A stretch of 64,000 nt of DNA from a virus. Below are positions 28,316 to 45,605 of this stretch, piece after piece. The stretch's first letter is position 1. Each line of letters starts with the position of its first letter. A program made the translations under genes and the position numbers. Below the pieces are notes generated by a model that had not been told where the DNA came from, did no database searches, and was given only the letters and a program-made list of their open reading frames with translations. The stretch spans positions 37,634 to 101,633 of the IMG/VR virus record IMGVR_UViG_3300039310_000050; one strand, written 5' to 3'.

Positions 28316-28330
28316 TAAAGAAAAAACATG

Positions 28331-29320: not shown

Positions 29321-29348
29321 AATTTATCCTTTATTTTATGATACATCT

Positions 29349-29377
29349 ATCATAACATAAAATAAATGAAATGTCAA
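29349..29377 (-). promoter_or_regulatory. sigma70 promoter for RNA ligase
   Basis: Minus strand TTGACA (29372-29377), 17-bp spacer, TATGAT (29349-29354). Back-to-back with the late box at 29383-29390. Confidence 0.7.
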
Positions 29378-29382
29378 GTGAA

Positions 29383-29390
29383 TATAAATA
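29383..29390 (+). promoter_or_regulatory. T4-type late box TATAAATA before GIY-YIG gene
   Basis: Exact match, transcription start expected near 29396, giving a leader of about 67 bases that opens with the hairpin at 29399-29432. Confidence 0.55.
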
Positions 29391-29398
29391 TTATTATC

Positions 29399-29432
29399 GG
29401 GACCAAGTGGTGTTTAAGACCGCATTGGCCCC
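29399..29432 (+). promoter_or_regulatory. 5'-end hairpin in the GIY-YIG leader
   Basis: GGGACCAAG pairs with the segment ending TTGGCCCC with one A-C mismatch, continued by GTGGT/ACCGC-type pairs. It is within 4 bases of the predicted start of the late transcript. The ribosome-binding AGAGG lies after it. Confidence 0.5.
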
Positions 29433-29462
29433 TGAACAAAGCATTAGAGGTAACTAACGCAA

Positions 29463-30083: not shown

Positions 30084-30221
30084 CAAATATTTATTTGATG
30101 GTTTCTTTAAAGGTTAAGAAAAGGTGCGGTATTACGCAGATTCAAGTAAAACAAAAATCCATGAATTTTATCTCATTCTAAATCAACAAGATAGAGCGAT
30201 TGGAAATCATAAAAATGTGTT
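30084..30221. other. Intergenic stretch, nothing convincing
   Basis: 138 bp between convergent genes. A 27-codon plus-strand frame exists but has no ribosome-binding site. No promoter or terminator recognised. Confidence 0.5.
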
Positions 30222-30434
30222 TTATAGGCCAAGAAGTGTGGTTTCGATAGCTTGAACAAGCGATTCCAAATCATCATCCAAGCGGCCTATATCAATCAAG
30301 GACAATTGTGTATTACTTTCCAAAGTATATTCTCTCCGGATCTTTCCAAGTTCTGTTTTCAATAAGTAAAGAGTATCCGAATATAACTCATTCTCTCTTT
30401 CTAATTCCAACGTTTCGTTAATCTGTCTAGCCAT
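30222..30434 (-). CDS. Small helical protein, 70 aa
   Basis: MARQINETLELERENELYSDTLYLLKTELGKIRREY, predicted coiled coil followed by a second helix. Start overlaps the upstream gene by 8 bp. Unknown function. Confidence 0.62.
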   Translation of the reverse strand: MARQINETLELERENELYSDTLYLLKTELGKIRREYTLESNTQLSLIDIGRLDDDLESLVQAIETTLLGL

Positions 30435-31071
30435 TTAATTTCCACTCTGATGCTGGGAGGTAAGTTCTTATCCGAGCATACAATTTACTATTGGTTCCTT
30501 TTTGTAGATTTGGTGTTACATTTTTCTTTATTTCTTCTTTGGATAATTGGCGTTGATGGTAATTCTCCTGTATATAGATACCATCATCAACCTTAACACC
30601 ATTATGATATATTGGATAAGTAGTTTCATTTTTTGTTATCCAATAAACAAACCAACAACCTTTGATTTGTTTAAAGTCATATACATCACCAAAACCCAAA
30701 TTTATTGGTAAAAATTTACTTTGAATATAATCAATTTCTAATTCATTTGTATGAGGTTGTTTCCAAGATCTACTCTTATATTTTCCTTTACAAAGAAAAC
30801 CAGTATTTGGATCTACATAAAGATCTTCAATAGGATAAATTTTAGGAAAATGTGAATGTTGAGTATATGCTTCACCATTTAATATATAAACATTTTTTTC
30901 TACCATCCATAAAATACGATGACGAATTTCCTGTCCTATTTCAGTTTTATCATCAGCAAAATGGCAAATTTCAGAATATACTTTATCCCAAAGTTGTCCA
31001 ACTTTAGATTCTAAAAAACTATGCAAAACCGAATAATCAAAATAATCTTTAGCTTTCTTTTTATTCAACAT
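30427..31071 (-). CDS. Conserved phage protein, 214 aa
   Basis: SFLESKVGQLWDKVYSEICHFAD and DLYVDPNTGFLCKGKYKSR recur in proteins of unrelated tailed phages (recalled), but no function is known. Consensus promoter directly upstream (31080-31108). Confidence 0.68.
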   Translation of the reverse strand: MLNKKKAKDYFDYSVLHSFLESKVGQLWDKVYSEICHFADDKTEIGQEIRHRILWMVEKNVYILNGEAYTQHSHFPKIYPIEDLYVDPNTGFLCKGKYKSRSWKQPHTNELEIDYIQSKFLPINLGFGDVYDFKQIKGCWFVYWITKNETTYPIYHNGVKVDDGIYIQENYHQRQLSKEEIKKNVTPNLQKGTNSKLYARIRTYLPASEWKLNG

Positions 31072-31079
31072 AATACAAA

Positions 31080-31108
31080 ATTATATCATACCTCAATATT
31101 TTTGTCAA
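31080..31108 (-). promoter_or_regulatory. Consensus sigma70 promoter
   Basis: Minus strand TTGACA (31103-31108), 17-bp spacer, TATAAT (31080-31085). Confidence 0.85.
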
Positions 31109-31111
31109 GAT

Positions 31112-31360
31112 TTATTTTTGCTTTTTCCACCCAGTAGAAATTTTAGAATAACGCCGGTCTGACATTTCTACAATATTAGGATCTATTTGATTATTTAATG
31201 ATTCTTGAGCCCGCTGACGGAGTAATTGAGATGTAGAAAGAGTTTTAGATCTTTTTTCAACTATATCCTGCATCATTTCATTTACTTTGGGGCTTACTAC
31301 ATTATCAGGATTATTCTTTACTTGTTCCTTTAATTCAGAAATTTTTTGATTATCAAACAT
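31112..31360 (-). CDS. Hypothetical protein, 82 aa
   Basis: Helical and charged (QKISELKEQVKNNPDN ... SQLLRQRAQESLNNQ). Starts at the regA stop codon. Unknown function. Confidence 0.6.
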   Translation of the reverse strand: MFDNQKISELKEQVKNNPDNVVSPKVNEMMQDIVEKRSKTLSTSQLLRQRAQESLNNQIDPNIVEMSDRRYSKISTGWKKQK

Positions 31361-31764
31361 TATATCACTCTTTTCGGTTTTCCAATATTATATTTTGGAA
31401 CTAAAGTCCATCCTTCCTTTTCTTTGAAAGATAAAATTTTAATTAAATTAATTGGTGTAATAGGTGATTTAGATTTTTCTGGATCCACCAATTTTACTAA
31501 TCCCCATTCTGCCAAAAGATTTGCAATTGTATTACGGCGCCCTTTATCTTCTTCTGAAAAATTCGTTTGTTTTCCATCTAATGCAAAAAGTTCTTTAAAA
31601 TGGAGAATTTTATAGTGACCTTGTTTATGTAATATATGTGCCGATTGATATAATTTTGGTTCTTTACGTGAAGCTATTCCAATACGAGTTAAAGTTTCCT
31701 TAGTTTTTAAAAAATCATCCGGTGAGGATAAAGTGACTTCAATTCCAATATCATCAAATAACAT
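31360..31764 (-). CDS. regA: RegA translational repressor
   Basis: 134 residues from MLFDDIGIEVTLSSPDDF at 31764 (T4 RegA 122). DDFLKTKETLTRIGIASRKEPKLYQSAHILHKQGHYKILHFKEL, EEDKGRRNTIANLLAEWGLV and GWTLVPKYNIG align well with T4 RegA as I recall it. It binds start regions of early mRNAs, including its own. AAGGA precedes the chosen ATG; the frame further upstream is a leftover of an HNH gene. Genes 62 and 44 lie upstream as in T4. Confidence 0.92.
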   Translation of the reverse strand: MLFDDIGIEVTLSSPDDFLKTKETLTRIGIASRKEPKLYQSAHILHKQGHYKILHFKELFALDGKQTNFSEEDKGRRNTIANLLAEWGLVKLVDPEKSKSPITPINLIKILSFKEKEGWTLVPKYNIGKPKRVI

Positions 31765-31766
31765 AA

Positions 31767-31890
31767 TTTTTCCTTTTATTTCTTTGTTGTTCAGATCTTG
31801 TGGCCCACCCAACATTACCAGGCTCATAATTTTCATTATTATTTATATGATCAATAGTCTTTAGATGGACCTGAAATATCTTTATAAAAC
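31767..31890 (-). pseudogene. Relic of an HNH homing endonuclease (C-terminal end)
   Basis: Minus-strand reading gives IDHINNNENYEPGNVGWATR then SEQQRNKRKNYV, nearly the same as the C-terminus of the intact HNH gene at 9185-9715. A few preceding residues (CFIKIFQVHLKT) continue the frame into the end of gene 62. No start or HNH N-terminal part remains. Confidence 0.8.
31840..31847 (-). promoter_or_regulatory. Possible late box TATAAATA within the relic
   Basis: Exact match on the minus strand, 76 bp before the regA ATG, but it lies in former coding sequence for Asn-rich residues, so it may be chance. Confidence 0.3.
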
Positions 31891-32301
31891 ATTTTTCTTT
31901 TTATTTATACCACCCTGATACATTCGAGATTTAATATATTCAAGATCCTTTTCAGTAAGGATTTTCAATGCTTCTCTAGCTTTTTTAGTAGAATAGGAAT
32001 AATATTCTTTAACTAAATCTAAATTTTCAGGTTTTTCATCTTTTGTTCCTTTTGCAAAACGAGGACGCGCAGAAACACCATACAGATAAAAAAGATATTG
32101 AGGAGCACCATCTAAACTCGATCTTTTATTCATTTCTTGGGCATAATAAAGTGAATCAGGAAAACGAGCAAATATACGATTTATCACATACGCATACCGC
32201 TTATATTCTTTTTCAGTTATTTGAGGATCTGATTCAGAATCCTCAAGTAAATTTTTTTTCGTTTTATTAATTGAATCTAAAAACCTAAAAAAATCTGCCA
32301 T
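31882..32301 (-). CDS. 62: Clamp loader small subunit (T4 gp62)
   Basis: 139 residues from MADFFRFLDSINKTKKNLL at 32301. YVINRIFARFPDSLYYAQEMNKRSSLDGAPQYLFYLYG, RPRFAKGTKD and YSYSTKKAREALKIL match the short gp62-type subunits of T4-like phages. With gp44 it loads the gp45 clamp. It starts within the stop codon of the tiny upstream gene (TAATG). Its position between gene 44 and regA fits. Confidence 0.88.
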   Translation of the reverse strand: MADFFRFLDSINKTKKNLLEDSESDPQITEKEYKRYAYVINRIFARFPDSLYYAQEMNKRSSLDGAPQYLFYLYGVSARPRFAKGTKDEKPENLDLVKEYYSYSTKKAREALKILTEKDLEYIKSRMYQGGINKKKNVL

Positions 32302-32387
32302 TACAGAATATATTCCCAAGTACCATCCGCATCTGATAGGATATCTCCCGATTGTCTTTTCATTTTTACTACTTTCTTTTCTGTCAT
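32301..32387 (-). CDS. Small protein, 28 aa, coupled to gene 62
   Basis: MTEKKVVKMKRQSGDILSDA...; TAA overlaps the ATG of gene 62. AAGGATAAT before its start. Small but well placed. Confidence 0.5.
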   Translation of the reverse strand: MTEKKVVKMKRQSGDILSDADGTWEYIL

Positions 32388-32391
32388 ATTA

Positions 32392-33276
32392 TTATCCTTC
32401 TTTCAATAATTGTTCATGCATTGTTTTAAATGCTGCATAAAAATCTTCTGGATGAATTGAATAAGACCATAAATCACCATTCCCATCGGGAAAAGAAATT
32501 TCATAAAACCCAAAAAAGGTTCCACCGAAATGTGCTACTTGTTTTTCTTTTGGTGTATTTTCATTTTCAATTACATCTACCATACAATCTGCCAATTTAA
32601 ATCTCATTGTCCCTTTAGTTTGTCCGGGATACCAATCTCTTTGAACTGGGACAGAAATTGTAGCCACTGGAACTCTTGGCTTTTTGACAACTGGATCCGG
32701 ATCATTTTTGATTTCTTTTGGCTCTTTCTTTTTCTTTGCAATTTTCTTTTTCTTAACAGTTTTCTTTGGTACATATTTTTCCTCTACCAAATCTTCTGTC
32801 GGTGAATCTATTGAAGCATCAAATGCTTTATCGAGATTATCACCACTAATAACAATACCATGGTCATCTAACCACCATTGCGGAAATGAATGATCTTTGT
32901 TATGGTCTTCCAAAATTATATTATGTAATTCTATACCCCCCTTTTCAAACAATTCATCTATTTCATATTTTACATATACACGATAAGTATAATCTGAAAC
33001 CACAAGTATCAAAGAATTAGGATTATTTTCAGCCCATTTAATCAAATACCGTGAATTATCTTCCATCAATGAGGTTCCTGGCAGCATTCCACCAAAATCG
33101 TAAATAACTAAATCTGTACCTTCTTGAATACCACCCACGGAATGCGCCCGATATGCATCCAATTCACATGGAAAAATTAAAGCAGCAAATACTTTTTTAT
33201 GAGTTTCTACTTCCTCTTCTGCTGTATGCATAGAGGTGCCCATAGGATCTACAAGGATACAAGTTTTAATTTTCAT
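32392..33276 (-). CDS. Hypothetical protein, 294 aa, between genes 44 and 62
   Basis: N-terminal alpha/beta half: TCILVDPMGTSMH, DLVIYDFGGMLPG, LILVVSDYTYRVY look like a Rossmann- or receiver-like fold, without clear catalytic residues. Residues about 170-205 are a lysine-rich linker (KKTVKKKKIAKKKKEPKEI). The C-terminal 90 residues (MRFKLADCMVDVIENE ... GGTFFGFYEISFPDGNG) form a beta domain. T4 has no gene here. Overlaps gene 44 by 4 bp, so it is made together with the clamp loader. Confidence 0.68.
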   Translation of the reverse strand: MKIKTCILVDPMGTSMHTAEEEVETHKKVFAALIFPCELDAYRAHSVGGIQEGTDLVIYDFGGMLPGTSLMEDNSRYLIKWAENNPNSLILVVSDYTYRVYVKYEIDELFEKGGIELHNIILEDHNKDHSFPQWWLDDHGIVISGDNLDKAFDASIDSPTEDLVEEKYVPKKTVKKKKIAKKKKEPKEIKNDPDPVVKKPRVPVATISVPVQRDWYPGQTKGTMRFKLADCMVDVIENENTPKEKQVAHFGGTFFGFYEISFPDGNGDLWSYSIHPEDFYAAFKTMHEQLLKEG

Positions 33277-34217
33277 ATAACTTCAAATCCTTCATCTGCC
33301 ATTACAGTTGTTAAAAACGCAAGCAAACAAATTTCTTGATCCAAACTACGTGATGCTTGATCCAGAAAATCACCCAAAATCAAAACAAATTGTGGAATGA
33401 ATTCTGGCTTAAAATGAACATACATCACATCAAACAACTGCCGATATATGCGCGTGGGTTCATTATCTGCGTTATTAGCTACCCACTTTCTCACTTTACC
33501 AAAATCTTTATCTTTCATTGCTGCTAAAAGTTCCTTAATCGGAACATCGGCCAACTGGCTTAAAATACCTGAATCAATCTTTCCTGTAATTGCATATCTT
33601 TGAATTACACCAATTGTCATACGAAAATCAGGAAAGAATTTCGAAATCAATTGCATTAAAACTGCATTTTCAAATGGGATCTTTTCTATCTTTAAGATTT
33701 CGGCAATCCGTTGATGCATTTGTTTGGCCATAGAAACTTTTTCTTCTTTTGTTGGTTTAAAATCAACAATAGGACAGCGAGAAAATAAAGCATCAATTAC
33801 TTGATTCTTAAAATTGATAGTTAAAATAAAACTACAATTTCCAGAAAATTCTTCCATGAAATTCCGTAATGCTTCTTGAGTTAACTTGGTAAGCCCATCA
33901 GCTTCATCCAAAATAACTACTTTACGTCCACCAGTCATAGATACTGTTGATGAAAAACCACGAATATCTGTTCTCAATGTATCAATATTACCATTTTCAG
34001 AACAATTGATAATTAAACTATCCGCATCCAACTCATCACATAGCGCACGAGCAATAGTTGTTTTTCCAATTCCTGGAACACCATGTAAAGTTATATTAGG
34101 AATAATATTTTGATCTACATAAGATTGGAATATTATTCTGAGGTTTTCTGGAAGGACTGTATCTTTTACCGTACGTGGACGATATTTCTCTGCCCAAATA
34201 ATTTCTTTACGAATCAT
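33273..34217 (-). CDS. 44: Clamp loader large subunit (T4 gp44)
   Basis: 314 residues (T4 319). WAEKYRPRTVKDTVLP start, Walker A GVPGIGKTT (46-54), Walker B ILDEADG (102-108), arginine-finger FSRCP, then the C-terminal collar domain. AAA+ ATPase that opens the gp45 clamp with gp62. The start lies in the tail of a frameshifted small gene. Confidence 0.94.
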   Translation of the reverse strand: MIRKEIIWAEKYRPRTVKDTVLPENLRIIFQSYVDQNIIPNITLHGVPGIGKTTIARALCDELDADSLIINCSENGNIDTLRTDIRGFSSTVSMTGGRKVVILDEADGLTKLTQEALRNFMEEFSGNCSFILTINFKNQVIDALFSRCPIVDFKPTKEEKVSMAKQMHQRIAEILKIEKIPFENAVLMQLISKFFPDFRMTIGVIQRYAITGKIDSGILSQLADVPIKELLAAMKDKDFGKVRKWVANNADNEPTRIYRQLFDVMYVHFKPEFIPQFVLILGDFLDQASRSLDQEICLLAFLTTVMADEGFEVI

Positions 34218-34397
34218 GTAATACTTTTTCCTTTTCTTTTTTCAATTTAATTATTGTAGGATATTTAGGATCTCTACACCATCTACAAAGTAATGGTGCT
34301 CCTTTCATTTCACCCTCAAGAATTACAGCATCATAAAATAACCCGCGCGATCAGGAAATAATTGGTCACTCTCTCCACAAATTTTACATTTTTCCAT
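34207..34397 (-). pseudogene. Zinc-ribbon gene broken by a frameshift
   Basis: ATG at 34397 overlaps the upstream stop (TAATG). Frame 1 gives MEKCKICGESDQLFPDRAG; a shift then gives LFYDAVILEGEMKGAPLLCRWCRDPKYPTIIK and a stop at 34207. CxxC and CxxC together would form a zinc ribbon. Span 191 bp, not a multiple of three. Confidence 0.6.
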
Positions 34398-34678
34398 TAT
34401 GTAACCACCACTTTCAATTTAGTTCCTTGATTTTGTCCTTGATAATATGTAGGTTGTAAACATGCACTACAAACTCCTGCATAATATTTTGGTAATTTAA
34501 CTACTTGATCTGATTGAATTAAATCAAGGAACTTCTTTACACTAAAGGGATATGTTTTACGTTTTTCTTTATTTTCTGGTTCACTGGTATCAATTGCCAA
34601 AAATTGAGCCATTTTACGTTTCTGACCACAAAATTGGCAATGTAAAGTTGTATTTTTTCTTTTAGTAGATTTAGCCAT
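34397..34678 (-). CDS. Zinc-ribbon protein, 93 aa; source or partner of the ligase repeat
   Basis: Start MAKSTKRKNTTLHCQFCGQKRKM at 34678; CQFC and CSAC, about 60 residues apart, form a plausible zinc ribbon. The segment QVVKLPKYYAGVCSACLQPTY is encoded by the 65-bp repeat also found in the ligase. It fits naturally here as the second half of the ribbon, so this is likely the original copy. Its start overlaps the upstream gene. Confidence 0.72.
   Translation of the reverse strand: MAKSTKRKNTTLHCQFCGQKRKMAQFLAIDTSEPENKEKRKTYPFSVKKFLDLIQSDQVVKLPKYYAGVCSACLQPTYYQGQNQGTKLKVVVT
34445..34509 (-). repeat. 65-bp direct repeat, copy in zinc-ribbon gene
   Basis: Identical to 21278-21342; see that entry. 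Confidence 0.95.
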
Positions 34679-34940
34679 TTTCAATAGTCAAGGTTGATTT
34701 TAATTCCTTGTATCCTTTAACTATAATATCCCATTCAGGACCTACATATATAGAATTAAAAGGATGAAGTGATTTATCTAATTTAAAAACACCTTCACCA
34801 GCTAAAAGAAAAATTCCATTACCCAAACCATCAATATATCCAGAAAATACTGTTCCATATGTAATAGATCCTAAACGTCTAGATTCTTTTTTAACTTCTT
34901 TAGTTTTAATATTAATTTTCATTTGTGCCATAATTTCCAT
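34671..34940 (-). CDS. Hypothetical protein, 89 aa
   Basis: KESRRLGSITYGTVFSGYIDGLGNGIFLLAGEGVFKLDKS; beta-rich. Start is either 34940 or the ATG three codons later. No function assigned. Confidence 0.6.
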   Translation of the reverse strand: MEIMAQMKINIKTKEVKKESRRLGSITYGTVFSGYIDGLGNGIFLLAGEGVFKLDKSLHPFNSIYVGPEWDIIVKGYKELKSTLTIENG

Positions 34941-34981
34941 TTTTCCTTTTCACATTATTTGATTTATTATCCATAATATTT

Positions 34982-35057
34982 TGGTAGAGTTACCGAGGAT
35001 TGAACTCGGATTTGTGGCGTGAAGGGCCACCTTCCTATCCATTTAGAAGATAACTCC
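34982..35057 (-). tRNA. tRNA-Glu (TTC anticodon)
   Basis: Acceptor GGAGTTA/TAACTCT, anticodon stem GTGGC/GCCAC with loop CCTTCAC, T-loop TTCAATC, encoded CCA. Isolated from the other tRNAs, just after gene 45. Confidence 0.93.
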
Positions 35058-35062: not shown

Positions 35063-35761
35063 TTAATTACCATATTGACTAGCATTTGCTTCTAATACAA
35101 TATGATATGTAAGTGGTAAAGTCTCATGTTTAAAGCGGCTAATACCATCTTTACATACTGCAACATCATAAGTGCCTGGAATTAATGTTAAATAATCAAT
35201 TTTCCAAACAAATTTAAATGGAGGAATTTTAGCAGGTGCTTTACCAATTTCAAGACTGGTTGTATTTGTACTGCTATTTTTACTATCTAATGTAGTTAGA
35301 CTTAACTTTTTACCATCACTTTCAAGAGCCAATTCAGGCGTTCCTAAAGTTCTAGCCATATTTGTAATTGATCGAAATTGAGCTTCTGTTAATTTTAAGG
35401 TAACTTCAGTACTAGGTAAAGCTATTTTTTTCTTAGGATCTGGAATATATGCTAAAGCTTCATCTCCATAATGATATTTAACCGATAAACCACCAGATTC
35501 ATCACTAATTTTAACATATTCATCAGCTTCATCAAAAATCAATGTTGGTTTTTCAAATTGTGTTGTTACTGATAAAAATTGAGTTAAATCATAAATTGTA
35601 AATCTTTTAGGAAATTTTTCTGTTATTTCTACTTCTGCAAAAGTATGTTTCTTTACAGAACGTGTTACCAAATTATTTCCTTTTGGAAACAATAATGTTT
35701 GATTAATAGTTGCAAAATTCTTTAAAATATCAGTTGTTATTGGTGTTAATAATAGAGACAT
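35063..35761 (-). CDS. 45: Sliding clamp (T4 gp45)
   Basis: 232 residues (T4 228). LKNFATINQTLLFPKGN, FTIYDLTQFLSV and the C-terminal LTYHIVLEANASQYG correspond to conserved parts of gp45 as recalled. Trimeric processivity clamp for gp43, and in T4 also a mobile activator of late transcription, which fits the gp55 gene and late boxes here. The start overlaps the upstream gene by 32 bp. Confidence 0.9.
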   Translation of the reverse strand: MSLLLTPITTDILKNFATINQTLLFPKGNNLVTRSVKKHTFAEVEITEKFPKRFTIYDLTQFLSVTTQFEKPTLIFDEADEYVKISDESGGLSVKYHYGDEALAYIPDPKKKIALPSTEVTLKLTEAQFRSITNMARTLGTPELALESDGKKLSLTTLDSKNSSTNTTSLEIGKAPAKIPPFKFVWKIDYLTLIPGTYDVAVCKDGISRFKHETLPLTYHIVLEANASQYGN

Positions 35762-36173
35762 TAGCTAATTCCTTTTTCATTTCAATTATAAATTTCAATC
35801 TTAATGTATTTTCCAATACCGATTTATAATGTTGCATTAAAACTAATTTATATGCTTCAGAATCTTTAGTAACTATTACGGTATCCATTGCTTCAAATAA
35901 AGCTTGGCGCATATATACTAAACTATCCAAATGTTCTTCATAAGCATCTTTTAATGCATCACGCCCATTGAATGGTTGAAGTCTTGTACCATACTTATGA
36001 TATCCTGTACGGTCCCTTAATTTAATATCATCCATCAATTTTAATTGTGTTTTTTCTTGTATTGATCCTGGAGGAAATTTTTGTCTTGATAAATCACTTA
36101 ATACAAGATCCCAAATAGCAGGTTTATTATTTACTATTGGAGGCGGTTCTTTTTTCCATAATTCTTCATTCAT
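35730..36173 (-). CDS. Conserved phage protein, 147 aa, possible dNTP pyrophosphohydrolase-like
   Basis: RDRTGYHKYGTRLQPFNGRDALKDAYEEHLDSLVYMRQALFE recurs in phage proteins annotated as dATP/dGTP or MazG-like pyrophosphohydrolase domains; the E-x-x-x-D-x-x-x-Y arrangement would suit metal binding. Function not proven. Own consensus promoter. Confidence 0.6.
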   Translation of the reverse strand: MNEELWKKEPPPIVNNKPAIWDLVLSDLSRQKFPPGSIQEKTQLKLMDDIKLRDRTGYHKYGTRLQPFNGRDALKDAYEEHLDSLVYMRQALFEAMDTVIVTKDSEAYKLVLMQHYKSVLENTLRLKFIIEMKKELANVSIINTNNN

Positions 36174-36218: not shown

Positions 36219-36247
36219 ATTATAACATATTTCTATTTGGTTGTCAA
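36219..36247 (-). promoter_or_regulatory. Consensus sigma70 promoter
   Basis: Minus strand TTGACA (36242-36247), 17-bp spacer, TATAAT (36219-36224); likely drives the gene at 36173 and gene 45. Confidence 0.85.
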
Positions 36248-37177
36248 TTACCAAGTTTTCTTAATTGGCGGAGCAATAGGGTGTGAATTATCTTCATTTC
36301 CTATATCATCAGGTCCATCTTGTGCATTTGGATCTATTTTGGTATAAACATCAAGGAAACTAGTTTGAGTATTTAAATCAAATCTAGCAATACTATCTCG
36401 AATAGCCTTAATTCTATTACGTTTAAAAATGGCATAAGCTTTCACAATATATACTAAACGACCAGTACTAATTGTTTCATCTACACCACCTTGATTATAT
36501 GTTTGCCGTATATTTTCTGCCCATTGACACAAACAATCAATAAAATCAGGAGATTCAATACCATATATTGATAAATTCTTTTTAAGAATTTTGGCAGTTA
36601 TTTTTGAATTTGGATATCCTTGTTCATACATTAAAGGAAATCTTTCCAATAATGCTTCATTCATTACATTTGTTCCAATATATTTACCATCTTCACTACC
36701 TCGACCTTTTGTATTAGCTGTAGCTACAATATTGAAACCCTTACAAGGATGCACCCAACGATTAATTTTTTTAATATAAATTCCACTACCTTCTAAAAGA
36801 GGTTGCATACATAAAAATTTGGAAGAACCTAAATCAATTTCATCTAATAAAAGAAGTGCACCACTAGGATCTTCGGCTGCTTTAACTGCTGGTCCATCTT
36901 CCCAAATTGTATCTCCATTAATTAACTTATAACTTCCTAATAAATCACTTTCATCCGTTTCAATCGTAATATTTACTCGATACAAATTTTTCTTATTTTC
37001 TGCACAAATCTGTAAAGGAATTAATGTCTTCCCAGATCTTGTGGGACCTGTAATATAAAATGGTAGAAAAATACCACTATCAATAATAGTTTTTACATCA
37101 TTATAACAACCAAAAGGAACAAAGGTTGGGTCTTTTTCAGGAATAAAATTATTTGAATTTTCAATTTTCTTCTTCAT
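36248..37177 (-). CDS. MoxR/CobS-like AAA+ ATPase
   Basis: 309 residues. Walker A GPTRSGKT (44-51), Walker B ALLLLDEID (107-115), sensor region NIVATANTKGRG and EALLERFPLMYE, typical of MoxR and CobS ATPases. CobS-like genes are known in cyanophages and other T4-like phages, where their role is unclear. The VWA/CobT-like partner is encoded just upstream (37660-39861), so the pair probably forms a chaperone or metal-insertion-like complex (inference from the MoxR-VWA families). Confidence 0.85.
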   Translation of the reverse strand: MKKKIENSNNFIPEKDPTFVPFGCYNDVKTIIDSGIFLPFYITGPTRSGKTLIPLQICAENKKNLYRVNITIETDESDLLGSYKLINGDTIWEDGPAVKAAEDPSGALLLLDEIDLGSSKFLCMQPLLEGSGIYIKKINRWVHPCKGFNIVATANTKGRGSEDGKYIGTNVMNEALLERFPLMYEQGYPNSKITAKILKKNLSIYGIESPDFIDCLCQWAENIRQTYNQGGVDETISTGRLVYIVKAYAIFKRNRIKAIRDSIARFDLNTQTSFLDVYTKIDPNAQDGPDDIGNEDNSHPIAPPIKKTW

Positions 37178-37239
37178 AATGTATATTATCCAATTTTTTA
37201 TTCTATTCCAAAAGGTTTCGCTTTTACATCATTTTCATC

Positions 37240-37566
37240 TTACCATACTTCAGGTTCAACTGGCTCCTTTGGAACTTTCAATGGTTTCGTTTTAATTACT
37301 ACATCTTTAAATGCCACAACTGGCAATTTTAAAAGAACAGTCAAATCATATCGGGCCCGTTTATCTGGAATACGAACCTTTAAATTCTTACTAATCCATG
37401 ATGGTGCAAATTTTAAACCATTAATCTCTTTTGTAGCTTTTAATAAATCAGAACGTTTTACAAGATTTGCATTCTTTCCAAATTTTGCAATTAGTTGATC
37501 TAAAAATAATCTTTGGCTTGTTGTTAAACTTTTTGGTGAATTATTATCCACTTTTTTCTTGGACAT
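37240..37566 (-). CDS. Hypothetical protein, 108 aa
   Basis: TTSQRLFLDQLIAKFG and RSDLLKATKEINGLKFAPSWISKNLKVRIPDKRARYDL: a winged-helix-like or DNA-binding appearance, not certain. Lies between the MoxR and VWA genes with a perfect promoter. Confidence 0.62.
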   Translation of the reverse strand: MSKKKVDNNSPKSLTTSQRLFLDQLIAKFGKNANLVKRSDLLKATKEINGLKFAPSWISKNLKVRIPDKRARYDLTVLLKLPVVAFKDVVIKTKPLKVPKEPVEPEVW

Positions 37567-37584
37567 TTCTAACCCCTATCTTTA

Positions 37585-37613
37585 ATTATACTATATTTTC
37601 AATGAATTGTCAA
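37585..37613 (-). promoter_or_regulatory. Perfect consensus sigma70 promoter
   Basis: Minus strand TTGACA (37608-37613), 17-bp spacer, TATAAT (37585-37590). Confidence 0.88.
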
Positions 37614-37659
37614 GTACCCTATTTAATGAATCTTGTTAAAAAACGCGGACATTATAAAA

Positions 37660-39861
37660 TTAAGAAATCATCCGTATAAACCGAGTGAGAACTACGCGTT
37701 GTTTCCTCTGTTTCAATCCATGATCAGTCATTGCTGTTACCATTTGACGATTACTCATTGGCATTGCTGGCGCAAACGGACTTGATGGTAAATGAATTTT
37801 CAATTCTTTTCCTCCAGGAATAATATAAAATTCATTATATCCCATATCATCAGCCAAAATAAAACCATTTTTATTAAATTCACCTCTTAATTTATTTTGG
37901 CTATCTTCATCTATCCATCTTTTAGGACATAAAATTTCAAACGCATGATTTTTTAATTCTTCAGAATCTCCCGAAATAAAAAATCCAATAGCATTAACTC
38001 CTGTACGATTACGGAAAATTTGTAAAAATTGTGAAGTATTTTCCATAGATGATACCGAAATTGGATAATCTATATGAGTTATTGGATCTTTCAAAAATAT
38101 ATCATTTTTATTACAATCAATAGGTAATACATGTCCTTCTTCATTACCTACATAATAATGATCTGTTGTTGCTTCACCATCTGTAATAAAAATTGTATTT
38201 ACTTTTTGATATTTCTTACAAAATGGTTTAACCATCTCTATCGCAGTTACAATGGTTTCATTTAAAGGAGTACCTCCCATTAAATCTGTGGGTGGTAAAG
38301 AAAGTTGATTACTAGAAGCCATCATTAATAAATTAATACAAGCATCATTAAAATCTGTGGCGGACATATTACTTGATAAAATTTGACGTAACTTAAATCC
38401 TGCAAAAAAAGCAAAATCATCTTTATGATGTATAAATTCATCCGCGTTTGCTTCTATTCCCAAAGAAAAAATATTTTGCTTACTATGTGTTGCATATGAT
38501 CCAAAAGTATAAACATCAAATGGAATTTGTTCTTTTTTAGCAAATAAAACCAAATTCAATAATTGATGAATAGCTCCCAACATATGTGGTTCCATGGAAC
38601 CACTCCAATCAACAAAAATTTGTAAAATATGATTCTTACCTTCTGGTATAGTGGCCACTTTCAACATAATATCATCTTCAAATTTATACCTATTTAATTT
38701 ATGAAGATCGATAATTCCCATATTTGAAATTTGGGTTCTACGGTATGCATCGGCCGCTTTATGTATTTCAAATTCTTTTTGTAACCATGCAACCACTGGT
38801 TTATTTTCTTCTTTAAATTTTTCAAATTCATTAGTATGAAGAGAAACCATATTTGGTTTTTGATCATAAAATAATCTAATTTCAGAATGAACTACCCAAT
38901 AAGGAATAATAATTTGATCTAATTTTGGAATAGGTATACCTAAATATTTAACATTTTTAGCCATAGAATCAATTAAATTTTCTTGAGATTTTTCCCAAGT
39001 TTTATCAGTTTCCGATTCTATAGGAATATCTAATTCCGATTCATTGTCCTTTTCGGTTTTAGTGGTTTCTTTGGATTTTTTGTCTTCATTGGTTTCTTTG
39101 GTTTCTTTGGAAGTATCTTTTTTAATTTCATTTTCTTCCTTTTCTGGTTCTACAGTATCTTCCTCATTATCAGATTCATCAATATCTGAATCGGGATCAA
39201 TTACATCAGAATCTTCTTTTTGAGATACATTCTGTTCTTTTTGTTTCTCTTCTTGATTTTCTTCCTTTTGTGATTCTCTTTTTTTCTTTTGTTCCTCTTT
39301 AGCATACTTATATAAGTCAAAACAAATATCTATAACATCATTAAATATTAATGCTTTTTCAATACGATCAACAAATTCATGTTCAATTGGAGAAAAAATA
39401 ATTGAAGAATCTCTCGTTTTAAAATAAACATTAATACGGTCTATAATATTGAATTCATTTATATTACGAGATTTCGTAGCAAAAAAATCTCTATCTACTA
39501 ATTCTTTATATCCATTTAAAAATGCTTTTCGGCCACCAGGATATTTGATCTTTATAAGTTTTTCAATACGGCAATCTTCTACAATATTGATAAGTCTTTT
39601 TGCAGCCCGAGGATGAATAGGATTAACATACATACATGCTTCAGTAAATATATTTCCTCCTTGTGTAGAAAATAATGCATGTGATACTTCATGAAGGATA
39701 AAAAGATCATATATATCATTTGATATATCTTTCCAAATTGGAAGAGTTAATATTCTTCTTTTTGGATCGAAGGACGCAGTACAAATACCCGCATGTACTA
39801 CTGTTAAATCTTCTTTAGCTAATAATTTTGCCAACATCTTTTTGGATTGAATGTTTATCAT
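37660..39861 (-). CDS. VWA-domain, CobT-like protein with N-terminal HExxH
   Basis: 733 residues. N-terminal IYDLFILHEVSHALFST (HEVSH at 57-61) looks like a metallopeptidase-like helix. Residues about 200-290 are a long acidic and lysine-rich linker (KEENQEEKQKEQNVSQKE, DESDNEEDTVEPEKEENE), as in CobT. The C-terminal VWA domain has the MIDAS motif DWSGSM (about 418) with TDLMGGTPL and FITDGEATTDH. Together with the MoxR-like ATPase it resembles CobS/CobT and MoxR/VWA pairs, which remodel or metallate target proteins. Its target in the phage is unknown. Confidence 0.85.
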   Translation of the reverse strand: MINIQSKKMLAKLLAKEDLTVVHAGICTASFDPKRRILTLPIWKDISNDIYDLFILHEVSHALFSTQGGNIFTEACMYVNPIHPRAAKRLINIVEDCRIEKLIKIKYPGGRKAFLNGYKELVDRDFFATKSRNINEFNIIDRINVYFKTRDSSIIFSPIEHEFVDRIEKALIFNDVIDICFDLYKYAKEEQKKKRESQKEENQEEKQKEQNVSQKEDSDVIDPDSDIDESDNEEDTVEPEKEENEIKKDTSKETKETNEDKKSKETTKTEKDNESELDIPIESETDKTWEKSQENLIDSMAKNVKYLGIPIPKLDQIIIPYWVVHSEIRLFYDQKPNMVSLHTNEFEKFKEENKPVVAWLQKEFEIHKAADAYRRTQISNMGIIDLHKLNRYKFEDDIMLKVATIPEGKNHILQIFVDWSGSMEPHMLGAIHQLLNLVLFAKKEQIPFDVYTFGSYATHSKQNIFSLGIEANADEFIHHKDDFAFFAGFKLRQILSSNMSATDFNDACINLLMMASSNQLSLPPTDLMGGTPLNETIVTAIEMVKPFCKKYQKVNTIFITDGEATTDHYYVGNEEGHVLPIDCNKNDIFLKDPITHIDYPISVSSMENTSQFLQIFRNRTGVNAIGFFISGDSEELKNHAFEILCPKRWIDEDSQNKLRGEFNKNGFILADDMGYNEFYIIPGGKELKIHLPSSPFAPAMPMSNRQMVTAMTDHGLKQRKQRVVLTRFIRMIS

Positions 39862-39885: not shown

Positions 39886-40350
39886 TTATTTTGGATCATT
39901 CCCGCATGGCGCAAAAGTCTCTTTCTCTTCCACCTCGTACAGCCAAACGTGATCGTCTTGGTGGCCTCTCGCCATCGGGATGATCCATCGAAGGTTTGGA
40001 ACCACGTTGGGGAGGTCCGAAACTGGGAATATGCGCACCTCTTCGGACTCCAGCGTGCGGCAAGCCTCCAGTTTTGTTGTGTCAAAGGCATGAAAGAACT
40101 CAACAGACCAATCCTTCCCAAAAAGTCTGAGAAATAGCGTCCAACCCACGGCAACTCCAGCCTCTTCATTGAACTCGCGCCACATGGCCGCGCTGGCGCT
40201 TTCATCTGGCAACCCAGGCTCTCCGGATGTGCGCTTACCGCCGATGGCATTCCAGTGCCCTACCACCGAAGCAGGCCCGTGGTTCTTGTGGATCAAGGCT
40301 ACCTTGGAGCCGTCAGAACTGAAAAGAAAACCGGCAACGTACTTTGTCAT
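39886..40350 (-). CDS. NUDIX hydrolase, recently acquired
   Basis: 154 residues. The Nudix box is GEPGLPDESASAAMWREF followed by NEEAGV; the spacing before the first glutamate has one extra residue. Hydrolyses a nucleoside diphosphate linked to another group; substrate unknown. Two 60-base lines inside the gene count 62-65% GC, against 30% in a line of the neighbouring gene, and codons are GC-ending, unlike all other genes here. Strong GGGAGG ribosome-binding site. It seems to use the promoter at 40446-40474. Confidence 0.87.
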   Translation of the reverse strand: MTKYVAGFLFSSDGSKVALIHKNHGPASVVGHWNAIGGKRTSGEPGLPDESASAAMWREFNEEAGVAVGWTLFLRLFGKDWSVEFFHAFDTTKLEACRTLESEEVRIFPVSDLPNVVPNLRWIIPMARGHQDDHVWLYEVEEKETFAPCGNDPK

Positions 40351-40445: not shown

Positions 40446-40474
40446 ATTATAACATGATTTATGTAATTTGTCAA
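40446..40474 (-). promoter_or_regulatory. Perfect consensus sigma70 promoter
   Basis: Minus strand TTGACA (40469-40474), 17-bp spacer, TATAAT (40446-40451). The -35 box overlaps the stop codon of the IMP dehydrogenase-like gene. Confidence 0.87.
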
Positions 40475-41487
40475 GCGCCATGAGCAGTACTTTCATGATA
40501 ACCCGCGGCACTAATTTGAACAAATTCAGCATTCTTCCATAATTCTACAATATTACGTGCACCATTATATGAAAAACCAGAACGAACACCTTCCATTAAT
40601 TGAGTAAGAATTGTAGATACATGTCCTTTATATGGAACTAATGTTTCTTCACCTTCAATATATCCTTGTTTTTGAACTTCAAATTTTTGTCCAAACGATG
40701 CTGAACCGCGATATATTTTGAATAATTTTCCATCATCTTTAATCACATTACCTGGAGTTTCTTTTGTCCCAGCAATCAAATGGCCTAACATAACTGAATT
40801 GGCTCCAGCGGCTAATGCTTTTACAATATCACCAGAATTCTTTATTCCTCCATCAGCAATTAAATTAATTTTAGGAAAAAATTTCCGAATTCTAAAAATA
40901 CTTTCTAAAGTAGGAAGACCAGATCCTGTAACAATTCTTGTAGTACATTGACTACCACTTCCAATCCCCACTTTAAATGATAAATCATATAATGGAAAAT
41001 TACCTCCCAACCTTTTTAAAAGATTATCAATACCTTTAGGAGTTGCATAATTACCTATAATCAATCTAGGTGTTGGAATAATTTTACTATAAATTTCTAA
41101 AATTGTATTTTCAACTTCAGGAGAATCAGCATGAGCCACATCAATACAATATCCATAGGGATGATACTTTTCACACAATCTAATTCTTTCTAATGCTTCT
41201 TTATATTTCCCTTCAACCGAAACAAATACAGGTGGTTTTTCATATTTTGGAAGTAAATATAATTGTTCTTTAGGAGAACACATTCTATGTAATACTCCAA
41301 CTCCACCAAATTTATACATTTCTATTGCCATATCGGTTTCTGTAATCGAAGACATATTAGCAGATAAAATGGGAAATTTTAATGGAATACCAGCAACCGA
41401 AGTAGCCAATGAAACTTGATCACGACTACCTCCAAATGTTCTTTGTGGAACTAATAAAACATCATCAAAACTATTTGCATATAACAT
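40471..41487 (-). CDS. IMP dehydrogenase / GMP reductase-like enzyme
   Basis: 338 residues, a TIM barrel without the CBS domains of bacterial GuaB. N-terminal [20 protein letters not shown], catalytic loop [11 protein letters not shown] with cysteine 181, phosphate-binding [26 protein letters not shown], and [10 protein letters not shown]. The length fits GMP reductase or a CBS-less IMPDH; I cannot separate the two from the sequence. It would adjust guanine nucleotide pools. Ends HESTAHGA. Rare in T4-like phages. Confidence 0.87.
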
Positions 41488-41671: not shown

Positions 41672-41920
41672 CTATTCAGAGGAAACACCAGAAAAGCTAG
41701 TTTTCTGGATATAACTTGGACGGAATGTCTTGACCGCATCAATAACAATTTGTTGCCGTCTTCGCATTTCGTCCAAGTGAATTACACAAATTGAATTTGG
41801 ATCTTCATGTTTCCCATAATTTTCAATTAAATCAATTATACTATCTAATAGTTTATTAAATTCATCTAGGTTAACTTTAATTTCCACATTATTCTTTCTT
41901 CCACACATAAACCGGCTCAT
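41672..41920 (-). CDS. Hypothetical protein, about 75-82 aa
   Basis: VEIKVNLDEFNKLLDSIIDLIENYG ... HLDEMRRRQQIVIDAVKTF, helical. ATG at 41920 or 41908, or a GTG just after the methyltransferase stop, are all possible starts; the last would avoid overlap. Confidence 0.55.
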   Translation of the reverse strand: MSRFMCGRKNNVEIKVNLDEFNKLLDSIIDLIENYGKHEDPNSICVIHLDEMRRRQQIVIDAVKTFRPSYIQKTSFSGVSSE

Positions 41921-43604
41921 ATTTCCGGAATCGTCCTAATACTTTGATATAATTCTTACAAAGAGGGGTTCCATCTTCTCCAATGCGATTCGCACCCGGC
42001 ATATTCATTAATACCATTTTTTCAACACCAACAAATTTCATTCCAAGTGATTTCAAAATCTCAGAACTGTCTTGTTCAATTGGCATACATTCTTTTCCAT
42101 AAAAAACATCTGCTACATTCCAAAGTAAATATCGATTTTTCTTAAGATAAGAAACCGCAGTTTCTAAAGTTGGACGTAAAAATCCTTCTCGCCATGCATC
42201 ATATTGAGGGAATTTAATACATGATTGTGTTTCATCTTCACTATATTGTTCCTTTGAAAAATATGGAGGTGATGTAAAAACAAGGTCTAATTTTCCTTTA
42301 TATTTTTTGAATTTCTTATCTTTTCCAATTACTTCAGACCCTAATTGAAATACTTCAAATGTATGTGGTTCATAACCCCAATGTTTCAATGAATTATTAA
42401 TAAATCCTGCCAAATACTCGTAACGAGTTTTTCCAAGTTCATCAATAAAATTATCTGTATTTGGATCTGTTCCAATATAATGAATATGTCTATCATCTAA
42501 TACAGTCATTGCACCCGCAATTCGGCCACCCCAACCCGCAGATGGGTCATAAATGTTAATTACTGGTTGATCTTTAATATGGTCTGTATATTTTTCATAA
42601 AGATATTTGGCAACCATTGGTGGAAAATTTACTGCTACTTGAATATAACCAATTTTAAATGCTGTAAATCCAAGTGGAAAAATTCGAGTTGAATTCTTAA
42701 AGAAACGGATATGGTATTGTTCTTCTTCTTTTAAATCCTGTTCCATTGCTTGAAAATATGGATCTAGATATATTTTTATCTTTTTATTTGAACCAAAAGG
42801 TTTAATGAAAGCTGGAGGAAGTTCTCCTAATAAATTAGTTAGGTGTTCTGGACCTATAATTCCTAATGTAAATAATTCAATAATATCAGCTTTAGAAAGC
42901 CATAAAAATTTTGAAGCATCAACTTGAGTATAACCACTACCTGTTTCACCTTCTTTGGAAGGTTCAACACGACTCAACCAAAATCCATATTCACCAAATT
43001 TTACAAAATCTCTTTTGAATAATTGAACCCATTCTTTACCAGTAGCCGCTGGAACTAAACCCATATCACTATTAGCTAAAATTGAAATGGAATATTTGTA
43101 AAATGAATCTTTACGAAAATGTCTACGGCATCCTTTTTGCATCCTATTTCGGAATCTATTATCTTTGAATAAATCATAAACTGCATACCCATTAAATCCC
43201 TTTTCAGTCACTTTAGTTTGATAATTTATTTTAGCACGCATCATGGTTGGAAAAAATTGATTCACACATGATCCCATACATCCATCATTAATAATCACAT
43301 TTTCTTTTCCATCTAATTCATCAACATAAGGTTTTGTAGATCCTGATTTAGGTTTATATCGTGAAAGAGTGATTCCAGGAGTTCCACTCATCTTACGGAA
43401 TTCTTCTTCCATTTCAAATTCATTGGATCCAGCTAATGGTGGAACTCCATATTCATCCCATACCTCAAGCACACGGGCGCGCATCTTATCAACCCACGTT
43501 TCGAATTCTTCATTATCCATTAGTAACAATTCTTTAAATGTTACATTGATAGATTGATCTTCAAGAATATAATCATTTCTATCCCAATAATGTTTTTCCA
43601 TCAT
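41889..43604 (-). CDS. Large DNA methyltransferase-like protein, 571 aa
   Basis: The C-terminal half has the SAM-binding IYDPSAGWGGRIAGAM (about 348) and the catalytic LVFTSPPYFSKEQYS (about 436), the TSPPY motif of N4-cytosine or N6-adenine enzymes, then YLLWNVADVFYG. The N-terminal 330 residues (GYAVYDLFKDNRFRNRMQKGC and so on) are a separate domain I do not recognise, perhaps for target recognition. It lies just after gene 46. Could modify phage DNA against restriction. Confidence 0.8.
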   Translation of the reverse strand: MMEKHYWDRNDYILEDQSINVTFKELLLMDNEEFETWVDKMRARVLEVWDEYGVPPLAGSNEFEMEEEFRKMSGTPGITLSRYKPKSGSTKPYVDELDGKENVIINDGCMGSCVNQFFPTMMRAKINYQTKVTEKGFNGYAVYDLFKDNRFRNRMQKGCRRHFRKDSFYKYSISILANSDMGLVPAATGKEWVQLFKRDFVKFGEYGFWLSRVEPSKEGETGSGYTQVDASKFLWLSKADIIELFTLGIIGPEHLTNLLGELPPAFIKPFGSNKKIKIYLDPYFQAMEQDLKEEEQYHIRFFKNSTRIFPLGFTAFKIGYIQVAVNFPPMVAKYLYEKYTDHIKDQPVINIYDPSAGWGGRIAGAMTVLDDRHIHYIGTDPNTDNFIDELGKTRYEYLAGFINNSLKHWGYEPHTFEVFQLGSEVIGKDKKFKKYKGKLDLVFTSPPYFSKEQYSEDETQSCIKFPQYDAWREGFLRPTLETAVSYLKKNRYLLWNVADVFYGKECMPIEQDSSEILKSLGMKFVGVEKMVLMNMPGANRIGEDGTPLCKNYIKVLGRFRKYEPVYVWKKE

Positions 43605-43606: not shown

Positions 43607-45319
43607 TTACTCCAAAATGCTAAATCCCTTTTCTTCAATAAATTTCAATGTATTATTAAACTTATCAATCAATAAATCACCTTGAGGACTAATAACAAAA
43701 ATATTTACATCCTTACTTAATAACTGAATAATCTTTAAAAGATCATCCACACCTGATGCATCCAAACTCTTTTCAAAAATTTCATCCATTATCAATAAAT
43801 TCGTATTTGCGGAATTTTTTAATCTAGCAATTTCTCGCCATGTAAATAAAATTGCCAAATCAATACGAAGTTTTTGTCCTTCTGATAATTGATAATATGT
43901 TCTTTCTTTATTTCCACGAATATGAATCAATTCTTTAAAATTCTCATCAATTGTAAAATTAGCAAAGAAGTCCATAGCTGCCAAATATCGATTGACATAT
44001 TTATTAATAATTGGAAGATATTGCCTAATAATTTTAGTTTTAATACCAGTATCTTTCAACATTACAGAAATTATATCCAAATAATGTTTTTTGGATGTTA
44101 ATTCATCTCTTTGTTCCATCAATTTGGATAATTCTTTGTATAAATCTTTCAATTTATCTTCTTGTTCTTTAGTATCTCCACTTTTTTCCTGTAATTCATT
44201 AATATCTTCTTGTACCTTTTCAATAAAGTTATCAATTGCACGAATTGAACTTTGTAACTTATTTACCTCTTTAGAATTTTCTTCAATTTCTAAAAGGATC
44301 TTTTTAATTCCATTTAACCTAGATTCAGATTCTGATAATTCTCCCTCCAATTTAATTAAAGCAGATTCAATTTCTTTAATTAAATCACCTTTTTCATTCA
44401 ACATACTATTTCGAAAAATATCATCAATAGTTTGCTTACATGTTGGGCATTTATCAGTCTTTTTATAAAATTCTTGTTCTTTTTCAGTTTTATTTTTATT
44501 AGTTCTAAGTTTATCTTCAGTTATTTCCAATTTTCTTATACGTTCCTGAAGATTTATTTGTTCAGAAGTTGTCATAATCAATTCAGTTATAGCTTGTTGA
44601 ATATATTGGATTTTTTCGTCAACTTCTTTTCTTTGTTTTAAATTTTCAGATATCAAATTCTTTTTTTCAGTAATCGCATTAATATTATCTGATTGTAATT
44701 TTTTGAGATAACTTTTTACCAATGTTATCTTTTCATTTTGTAATTCAATCGAATTACATAAAAGGATATATTCTTCTTTCATTTCTGCTATGCGTTGTTT
44801 AAGAACAATATTCATAGCTGAAAAAATTTGAATATCTAATAAATCTTCAATTAAATAACGCCGATCGGCAACTGATAATTGCATAAATGGTACAAATGAA
44901 GCCGATCCCAATACAACCACTTGCGTAAAACTTTTACGATTTAATTTAAGAATAGATTGTTCTAAATATTTTTGATAATCCCGAGATTTAGATTCTTGAT
45001 CTACCATTACTTGATTAATATAAATTTCAAATATTCTTGGTTTTAAACCTCTACGAATTTTATAATTAGTTCGACCAATTGAAAATTCAATTTCAACAAT
45101 CATTTCCTCTTCATTTGTATCATTAATTAAATCTGGAATATTAACATTTCGAAAAGCTACTCCAAATAAACCAAAAATTAAAGCATCTAATACAGTTGAT
45201 TTCCCTGTTCCATTAACACCATAAATTAATGTCGTAGGAGCTCCACGTAAATTTATTTCAGTAAAATTATCTCCTGTATTTAATAGGTTTTTCCATCTTA
45301 CTTTTTTAAAATTTACCAT
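43607..45319 (-). CDS. 46: Recombination nuclease subunit gp46 (Rad50-like)
   Basis: 570 residues from MVNFKKVRWKNLLNTGDNF at 45319. Walker A GVNGTGKST (34-42), long coiled coils around a zinc hook DKCPTCKQTI (about 288), then the ABC signature YQLSEGQKLRIDLAI and Walker B LLIMDEIFEKSLD. With gp47 it resects DNA ends for recombination-dependent replication. An HNH gene overlaps its start by 14 bp. Confidence 0.93.
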   Translation of the reverse strand: MVNFKKVRWKNLLNTGDNFTEINLRGAPTTLIYGVNGTGKSTVLDALIFGLFGVAFRNVNIPDLINDTNEEEMIVEIEFSIGRTNYKIRRGLKPRIFEIYINQVMVDQESKSRDYQKYLEQSILKLNRKSFTQVVVLGSASFVPFMQLSVADRRYLIEDLLDIQIFSAMNIVLKQRIAEMKEEYILLCNSIELQNEKITLVKSYLKKLQSDNINAITEKKNLISENLKQRKEVDEKIQYIQQAITELIMTTSEQINLQERIRKLEITEDKLRTNKNKTEKEQEFYKKTDKCPTCKQTIDDIFRNSMLNEKGDLIKEIESALIKLEGELSESESRLNGIKKILLEIEENSKEVNKLQSSIRAIDNFIEKVQEDINELQEKSGDTKEQEDKLKDLYKELSKLMEQRDELTSKKHYLDIISVMLKDTGIKTKIIRQYLPIINKYVNRYLAAMDFFANFTIDENFKELIHIRGNKERTYYQLSEGQKLRIDLAILFTWREIARLKNSANTNLLIMDEIFEKSLDASGVDDLLKIIQLLSKDVNIFVISPQGDLLIDKFNNTLKFIEEKGFSILE

Positions 45320-45605
45320 AATTTTTCTCCACATATTTAAAAGCTTGTAAAATTATTTTTGGATCATCTTGTAATAACCCTATTCCCCTATTACAATTAC
45401 TACATAATAATCCCCTAATTTTTCCAGATTTATGTTGGTGATCTACAGCAAATTTTCTTCCTATTGGATCCTTATCAATTTTACATATAGCACATTTTCC
45501 TTTTTGTTTTTTTAATAAAATATTATATTCCTCTATAGTTATACGAGACCATTTCCTAAATTTATCAGATCGTCTTTTTTTATTACAAATAGAACATATC
45601 TTCAT
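45306..45605 (-). CDS. Endonuclease VII-like HNH protein, 99 aa
   Basis: EEYNILLKKQKGKCAICKID followed by RKFAVDHQHKSGKIRGLLCSNCNRGIGLLQDDP is the recombination endonuclease VII fold (CxxC, DHxH, CxxCN). With an extra N-terminal CSICNKKRRSDKF zinc pair. At 99 residues it is shorter than T4 gp49 (157), so a free-standing homing endonuclease is more likely than the Holliday-junction resolvase. Inserted between genes 47 and 46. Confidence 0.83.
   Translation of the reverse strand: MKICSICNKKRRSDKFRKWSRITIEEYNILLKKQKGKCAICKIDKDPIGRKFAVDHQHKSGKIRGLLCSNCNRGIGLLQDDPKIILQAFKYVEKNYGKF

Follow-up and report, generated by a model that had tools for sequence, protein, structure and literature searches.

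What does a phage do with a MoxR-type ATPase and a partner that combines a VWA domain with a protease-like zinc motif? The question arises from a 64,000-nucleotide stretch of viral DNA (hereafter the window), which corresponds to bases 37634-101633 of the 101,633-base IMG/VR record IMGVR_UViG_3300039310_000050. The region 36248-39861 of the window consists of exactly three minus-strand open reading frames (ORFs), encoding the ATPase, a 108-aa protein and the VWA protein, the last being called the partner below. A sequence-only reading had described a MoxR-type ATPase with a VWA partner bearing HEVSH, an acidic linker and a metal ion-dependent adhesion site (MIDAS), and this description was borne out by an AAA_5 match, by motif conservation and by the charge of the linker. 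The features of the locus are as follows.

37660-39861, minus strand: the partner, 733 aa, a VWA/MIDAS protein with an N-terminal zincin-like domain ('peptidase', phrog_459), from model and fold matches
39679-39693, minus strand: HEVSH, residues 57-61, predicted zinc ligands and catalytic Glu, in 89/89 relatives
39562-39588, minus strand: NIVEDCRIE, residues 92-100, helix with the candidate third zinc ligand; N, E, D, R and I invariant in 89/89
39007-39294, minus strand: acidic linker, predicted to be disordered, residues about 190-285, net charge -19, from the model and a charge count
38596-38610, minus strand: MIDAS motif DWSGS, residues 418-422 (D418/S420/S422), completed by T531 and D561, from alignment and fold match to the MIDAS domains of NorD and Rea1/Mdn1
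37240-37566, minus strand: the 108-aa protein, a predicted phage ATPase N-terminal domain as a gene of its own, basic (net charge +14), from the N-domain profile and hhalign
36248-37177, minus strand: MoxR/midasin-type AAA+ ATPase ('CobS', phrog_249), 309 aa, lacking the N-terminal domain of most relatives, from profile and PDB sequence matches

The best reading, to which we assign a probability of about 0.5, is that the locus encodes an early MoxR/VWA remodeller of the midasin/NorQD type, which carries a zincin on a tether and has replication or recombination proteins as its targets. It builds on the domains, the conservation of the active site, the relation to MoxR/VWA machines, the neighbourhood, the promoter type and a split ATPase domain, all of which are read from sequence or models.

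The partner matches phrog_459 with E 3.4e-168 over positions 1-736 of 736. Its conservation was examined in 89 partners, namely those of the window, of seven named phages and of 80 IMG/VR loci, together with the HExxH gene of Pseudoalteromonas phage XG4, whose VWA columns are meaningless in that row; six copies of the window (L001-L006) and the separate VWA half of XG4 were dropped. HExxH keeps its two His and its Glu in all 89 partners, which fall into 45 clusters at 50% identity, whereas shuffling the first 110 residues of the partner gave an HExxH in 103 of 20000 trials, indicating that the motif is not a chance occurrence. The five residues of N..ED.RI are also kept in 89/89; this count is biased because the motif served as a retrieval pattern, which HExxH did not. 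The distance from the first His of HExxH to the Glu of ED.RI ranges from 24 to 46 residues, and the combination expected of a zincin, a conserved HExxH with a downstream acidic ligand, was found in 89/89. The MIDAS residues are kept in 88-89 of the 89. In XG4 (L010) the VWA part (7670-9912) and the HExxH part (9977-11207) are separate genes, in that order, and the ATPase frame is likewise broken in two; as the record carries an 'unverified' mark, the cause may be either a natural fission or a sequence error. Membership in the bacterial metallopeptidase-VWA family DUF2201_N was considered and set aside, since its model PF13203 matched neither this partner nor any of 68 relatives.

The AlphaFold2 model of the partner has a mean pLDDT of 78.8, the N-terminal domain being mostly at about 90. 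When the model was compared with known structures by VIA-align, the MIDAS domains of human Mdn1 and fungal Rea1 and the NorQ-bound NorD led the matches, with Z values of 13.9-16.8 over the first nine rows, and no other VWA row exceeded 12.3; a PDB sequence search with the partner returned low-complexity matches only. The ATPase scores 48.4 bits against AAA_5 (cut-off 22), and the key residues of Walker A, Walker B, sensor 1 and the arginine finger are conserved in 60/60 aligned phage ATPases. Its top PDB sequence match is midasin (E 2.5e-24), followed by matches to CobS (6.7e-12) and NorQ (3.8e-10). With AAA+ core motifs in one protein and a complete MIDAS in the adjacent VWA protein, the locus has the make-up of a MoxR AAA+/VWA pair, and the two genes, being adjacent and matching both families, also form a phrog_459/phrog_249 pair.

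The match of the ATPase to phrog_249 (E 1.3e-89) covers positions 101-358 of 380, and the N-terminal part appears to be encoded by the 108-aa gene. A profile built from the N-terminal part of 54 phage ATPases, from which L022 (no clear domain boundary) and L023 (a copy of the S-SM1 sequence) were left out, ranks this gene first among the 511 ORFs of the window (E 2.8e-5, against 0.059 for the runner-up), and hhalign gave 90%. On this sequence evidence the 108-aa protein is taken to be the N-terminal domain of the ATPase, split off in this phage, an identification that is new here; the link between this gene and the pair that had been suggested from the sequence is thereby confirmed in an unexpected form. 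The alternative of an unrelated third component was rejected on account of this homology. In the closest relative (L015, whose partner is 49-50% identical) the N-domain is fused to the ATPase. An assembly error was rejected as the source of the split, because five further IMG/VR records, perhaps from related samples, are identical over 3814 bases.

How widespread the pair is was assessed by tblastn over 50,697 phage records, in which, counting each gene separately, the partner was found in 463 and the ATPase in 495. Sorted by the first word of the record, the partner/ATPase counts are 365/365 for Synechococcus, 61/61 for Cyanophage, 24/24 for Prochlorococcus and 3/3 for Pelagibacter. In HTVC008M, S-SM1, OC, S-PM2, P-HM1 and P-SSM2 the annotation gives partner, ATPase, clamp and clamp loader in this order, while in DLP_6 the pair adjoins DNA polymerase, UvsX and primase/helicase. 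At the 80 IMG/VR loci, the stretch examined contained the ATPase in 57, gp45 in 41, gp44 in 34 and gp46 in 34 cases. For nine of the 23 loci whose stretch lacked the ATPase the whole record was searched: one has the ATPase elsewhere on its contig (87 kb), and the other eight are fragments of 11-62 kb, which are uninformative. As judged from sequence, the pair is thus an ordinary core feature of Kyanoviridae-like phages, located between gp46 and gp45/gp44, and the supposition that the presence of the partner was an exception did not hold, partner and ATPase together being the rule in these phages. The Kyanoviridae 'peptidase' (T4-GC 146, phrog_459) and 'CobS' (T4-GC 150, phrog_249) show a full-length partner match, the same motifs and the same order beside gp45/gp44; however, in the present phage the ATPase N-domain is a separate gene, and Nudix, IMP dehydrogenase-like and methyltransferase-like genes lie between gp46 and the partner. 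What is added here is the split ATPase domain, a promoter test and a reductase test, the machine itself being a known core phage feature.

The gene order around the locus is of the T4-like Kyanoviridae type: gp55, gp47, gp46, a few metabolic genes, the partner, the 108-aa gene, the ATPase, a 147-aa gene, gp45 and gp44. The relevant neighbours and promoter matches are listed below.

33273-34217, minus strand: gp44 clamp loader, phrog_168 (E 3.8e-103), context
35063-35761, minus strand: gp45 sliding clamp, phrog_223 (E 5.9e-55), context
43607-45334, minus strand: gp46/SbcC-like recombination nuclease subunit, phrog_77 (E 6.9e-144), context
36219-36247, minus strand: perfect sigma-70 promoter match upstream of the 147-aa gene and gp45
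37585-37613, minus strand: perfect sigma-70 promoter match (TTGACA-17-TATAAT) upstream of the 108-aa gene and the ATPase
40446-40474, minus strand: perfect sigma-70 promoter match upstream of the Nudix gene and the VWA gene

Between gp46 and the VWA gene are a Nudix gene (39886-40350), an IMP dehydrogenase/GMP reductase-like gene (40471-41487) and a 571-aa methyltransferase-like gene (41889-43604); in six other annotated phages this gap holds 0-3 genes. The 147-aa protein (35730-36173, upstream of gp45) has a segment in common with the C-terminal part of the deoxynucleoside monophosphate kinase family and with several unknown phage families. The window also carries 16 tRNA genes (16556-35057), 15 of them at 16556-27008 and one tRNA-Glu gene just downstream of gp45.

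Related pairs outside these phages have similar neighbours. They adjoin DnaE in Pseudomonas phage Nican01, in a Klebsiella phage and on Cupriavidus and Acinetobacter plasmids, and they adjoin genes for single-stranded DNA-binding protein (SSB), Bet/RecT and exonuclease on IncC and IncHI-like plasmids, where 'IncHI-like' is our own label for a record typed Col(VCM04), MOBH. Roseobacter phage CRP-810 and Microcystis phage Mae-Yong1326-1 show a weaker link, the genes nearby encoding endonuclease V and a RecA-family protein. The L044/L032 group has the partner near class I reductase and exonuclease genes, and the ATPase of L044 is elsewhere on the contig. Replication and recombination genes are thus the usual neighbours of the pair, plasmids included. 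In the CobT-like/MoxR pairs of plasmids and phage-plasmids (Acinetobacter, Cupriavidus, Klebsiella, IncHI-like), a VWA partner stands beside a MoxR ATPase, often with DNA metabolism genes, and HExxH is kept in 6/7 of the related partners on plasmids and other phages, the exception being Nican01. Several of these partners are nearer to CobT in the VWA domain than the phage partner is (CobT_C match in 5/7), and the IncC and IncHI-like plasmids (L118, L119) differ from the phage pair in gene order and in an additional DUF3150 gene. On both plasmids the genes for the MoxR ATPase, the DUF3150 protein and the VWA protein are grouped, close to those for SSB, Bet/RecT and exonuclease; HExxH and EDLRIE are retained in the VWA protein of the IncHI-like plasmid.

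When might the pair be made? Perfect TTGACA-16/18-TATAAT sites number eight in the window against 0.12 expected, and none of 100 shuffles reached eight; one of the sites precedes the late sigma factor gene. All eight are on the minus strand, and seven have an ORF start within 105 bases. The site between the partner and the 108-aa gene would allow the N-domain and the ATPase to be made together, separately from the partner. The late motif TATAAATA, by comparison, precedes the scaffold gene of this window by 53 bases and its major head gene by 42. Among relatives, counted at IMG/VR loci with at least 200 upstream bases (76 of 80 partner genes; 55 ATPase genes), a sigma-70 match at 11-12 of 12 positions was found within 200 bases upstream of 33/76 partner and 27/55 ATPase genes, and in 0/131 shuffled stretches; TATAAATA, a motif placed before head genes in this window, was found upstream of 0/76 partner and 0/55 ATPase genes. 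These promoters suggest that the pair is expressed early; the literature offered nothing usable on the timing of cobS transcription.

In the machine that we infer, the products of the three genes would act together. The ATPase would form a ring of the MoxR/midasin type, with the 108-aa protein as its N-terminal domain, and the partner would dock on the ring through its C-terminal VWA domain. The precedent is NorQD (PMC9976466), in which a finger of the VWA domain of NorD plugs the NorQ ring and the client is bound by the MIDAS; this docking geometry is adopted as a working model for the phage pair. The metal site of the MIDAS would grip the target, ATP hydrolysis would strain or unfold it, and the HExxH domain, presumably zinc-bound and held on its flexible acidic tether, would probably cut it. 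The targets of a machine made early would most likely be DNA replication or recombination proteins, either of the phage replisome or host proteins on DNA, and its role would be neither cobalt insertion nor virion building. NorQ-NorD and midasin (Rea1/Mdn1) are alike to this pair in the MIDAS/VWA fold and in AAA+ sequence; however, NorD, in its Paracoccus example, lacks the zincin motif, midasin is a single very large chain, and the clients differ.

The published readings of such pairs diverge. The pair has been called CobST, with cobT 'mistakenly annotated as a peptidase' and a hijack of host CobN proposed (PMC8651126). Cyanophage cobS has been described as not a true homologue of bacterial cobS (PMC5083919), a cyanophage MoxR ATPase has been assigned to the CGN subfamily (PMC9964418), and cobS has been placed among the cyanophage core genes (PMC3037559). 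In jumbo phages a MoxR-vWA chaperone with an N-terminal metallopeptidase has been described, and a role in virion assembly was proposed on the model of a MoxR-vWA pair required for the tails of an archaeal virus (PMC7824862). A Bacillus phage with two MoxR-type subunits is also on record (PMC2147016). Within the open-licence literature, represented mostly by titles and the openings of abstracts, no publication was recognised that sets the CobST and virion-assembly readings against each other.

If the pair were a viral cobaltochelatase, CobS and CobT would join host CobN in cobalt insertion and raise the supply of B12, for example for a class II ribonucleotide reductase (RNR). The two systems are indeed colinear (N-domain, acidic linker and VWA domain, with an AAA+ protein), and the remote homology to CobT is real: by hhalign the phage partner matches the plasmid partners at 99.4% and these match CobT at 100%, whereas the phage partner against CobT directly gave 53.8%. 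On this chain of matches CobT is remotely related to the phage partner, which by the curated models does not qualify as a CobT itself. The ATPase scores 41.1 bits against the curated CobS model TIGR01650, whose cut-off is 558.55, and the CobT models PF06213 and PF11775 match 0/68 relatives (E 0.01), this phage's partner likewise giving no PF06213 match. CobN was found in 0/13 phage records, a search of phage genomes only, and in 5/14 control genomes. The invariant HExxH of the partner is found at the equivalent site in 0/25 genuine CobT proteins, a set of 24 from one bacterial order plus Methylobacterium, with the short L147 left out; the helix that follows, located by pattern in 11 of them, reads like EQARVEA, and an HEPAH at residue 30 of the stop-to-stop frame L144 was judged to precede the domain. 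As to demand for B12, 13 of 18 pair-bearing records have the small subunit NrdB of the B12-independent class I RNR above cut-off, three (this phage, L015 and L016) have no NrdB and an RTPR-type class II RNR instead, below the curated cut-off in all three, and two have neither; weak RTPR matches in two NrdB-positive records were read as cross-matches. With class I NrdB in 13 records and neither enzyme in two, the need for B12 does not track the pair overall, although this phage is one where it could. We therefore regard a cobaltochelatase as quite unlikely. The sequence-only reading had likewise preferred a phage-specific protein-remodelling role; remodelling stands, given the unmatched CobS and CobT models, the absence of CobN from the records searched and the zincin motif, but the role is not phage-specific, since related pairs sit on plasmids. 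Its argument that no cobalamin genes are visible is weakened by the RTPR-type reductase, which is encoded on the contig outside the window.

The other candidates concern protein targets. A late chaperone and processing protease for head or tail proteins, as published for jumbo phages, would have the same architecture (a MoxR ATPase and a vWA protein fused to an N-terminal metallopeptidase, going by the published description), and a protease paired with a remodeller would in principle suit maturation. It is nevertheless rather improbable: the neighbours here are replication and recombination rather than structural genes, the promoters upstream are perfect sigma-70 matches, with no late motif, where head genes have late motifs, a distinct head maturation protease is encoded at 54881-55573, and two of the plasmids with related pairs, a conjugative IncC plasmid and a mobilizable one, make no virions. 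The early-type promoters, the invariant active site and the occurrence on phages and plasmids would also suit a host-takeover protease that, at an early stage of infection, extracts and cuts proteins of the host (RNA polymerase, or nucleoid or defence proteins); gene placement points instead to replication, and this possibility is quite unlikely. The PADLOC defence models matched none of the three proteins, and membership in known anti-phage defence systems was set aside. Finally, the zincin site might be structural or metal-handling, in a machine that only remodels its client or inserts metal into it, as NorQD does. NorD and CobT function with MoxR ATPases and have no HExxH (PMC9976466), and the Nican01 partner has lost it; the retention of both His and the Glu throughout the 45 clusters makes such a non-proteolytic remodeller unlikely.

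Several observations weigh against an early remodelling protease at the replication machinery. The HExxH of the CobT-like Nican01 partner (L112:2373-4454) is degenerate or lost and its VWA domain is kept, so catalysis seems dispensable in some pairs. The structure matches of the partner cover residues 349-733 only, the VWA domain filling the list and the zincin-like domain lying outside. For the 108-aa model the fold search found nothing in the PDB at E < 0.1, and its VIA-align rows (Z at most 5.1) mix EF-hand and winged-helix folds; the ATPases of Ochrobactrum phage OC and phage XG4, moreover, appear to lack the N-domain. The neighbour argument is one of association only, and the promoter argument rests on position, because TATAAATA is no commoner across the whole window than chance predicts (14 sites, with 15.6 expected). 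The B12-dependent RNR on this phage's own contig leaves some room for the cobalamin reading.

That RNR (contig 26128-29092; L163) is encoded in two frames. The first continues past CVKPSG into an intein-like N-terminal segment and is followed by a 215-aa ORF of HNH-like appearance and then by a frame that opens like a C-terminal intein and carries the remaining reductase. We take this arrangement to resemble a split intein with a free-standing homing endonuclease; the intein model TIGR01445 scored 17.7 bits on the region, below its 24.5.

A broader proposal, which we put forward as speculative, is that an ATP-driven metalloprotease guided by its MIDAS is common to phages and conjugative plasmids and clears or remodels DNA-bound proteins at the replication fork or during recombination, having been misfiled for years in marine phages as a B12 gene; cellular CobT would then be a relative that lost the peptidase site, and the basic N-domain would here have become a separate subunit, so that the ring might be recruited in trans to DNA or to clients. 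With the N-domain split off, a subunit is already at hand for studying the recruitment of the ATPase. Cyanophage papers count cobS among the auxiliary metabolic genes for B12, and if the pair is an early metalloprotease-remodeller, that inference would be wrong for hundreds of phage genomes.

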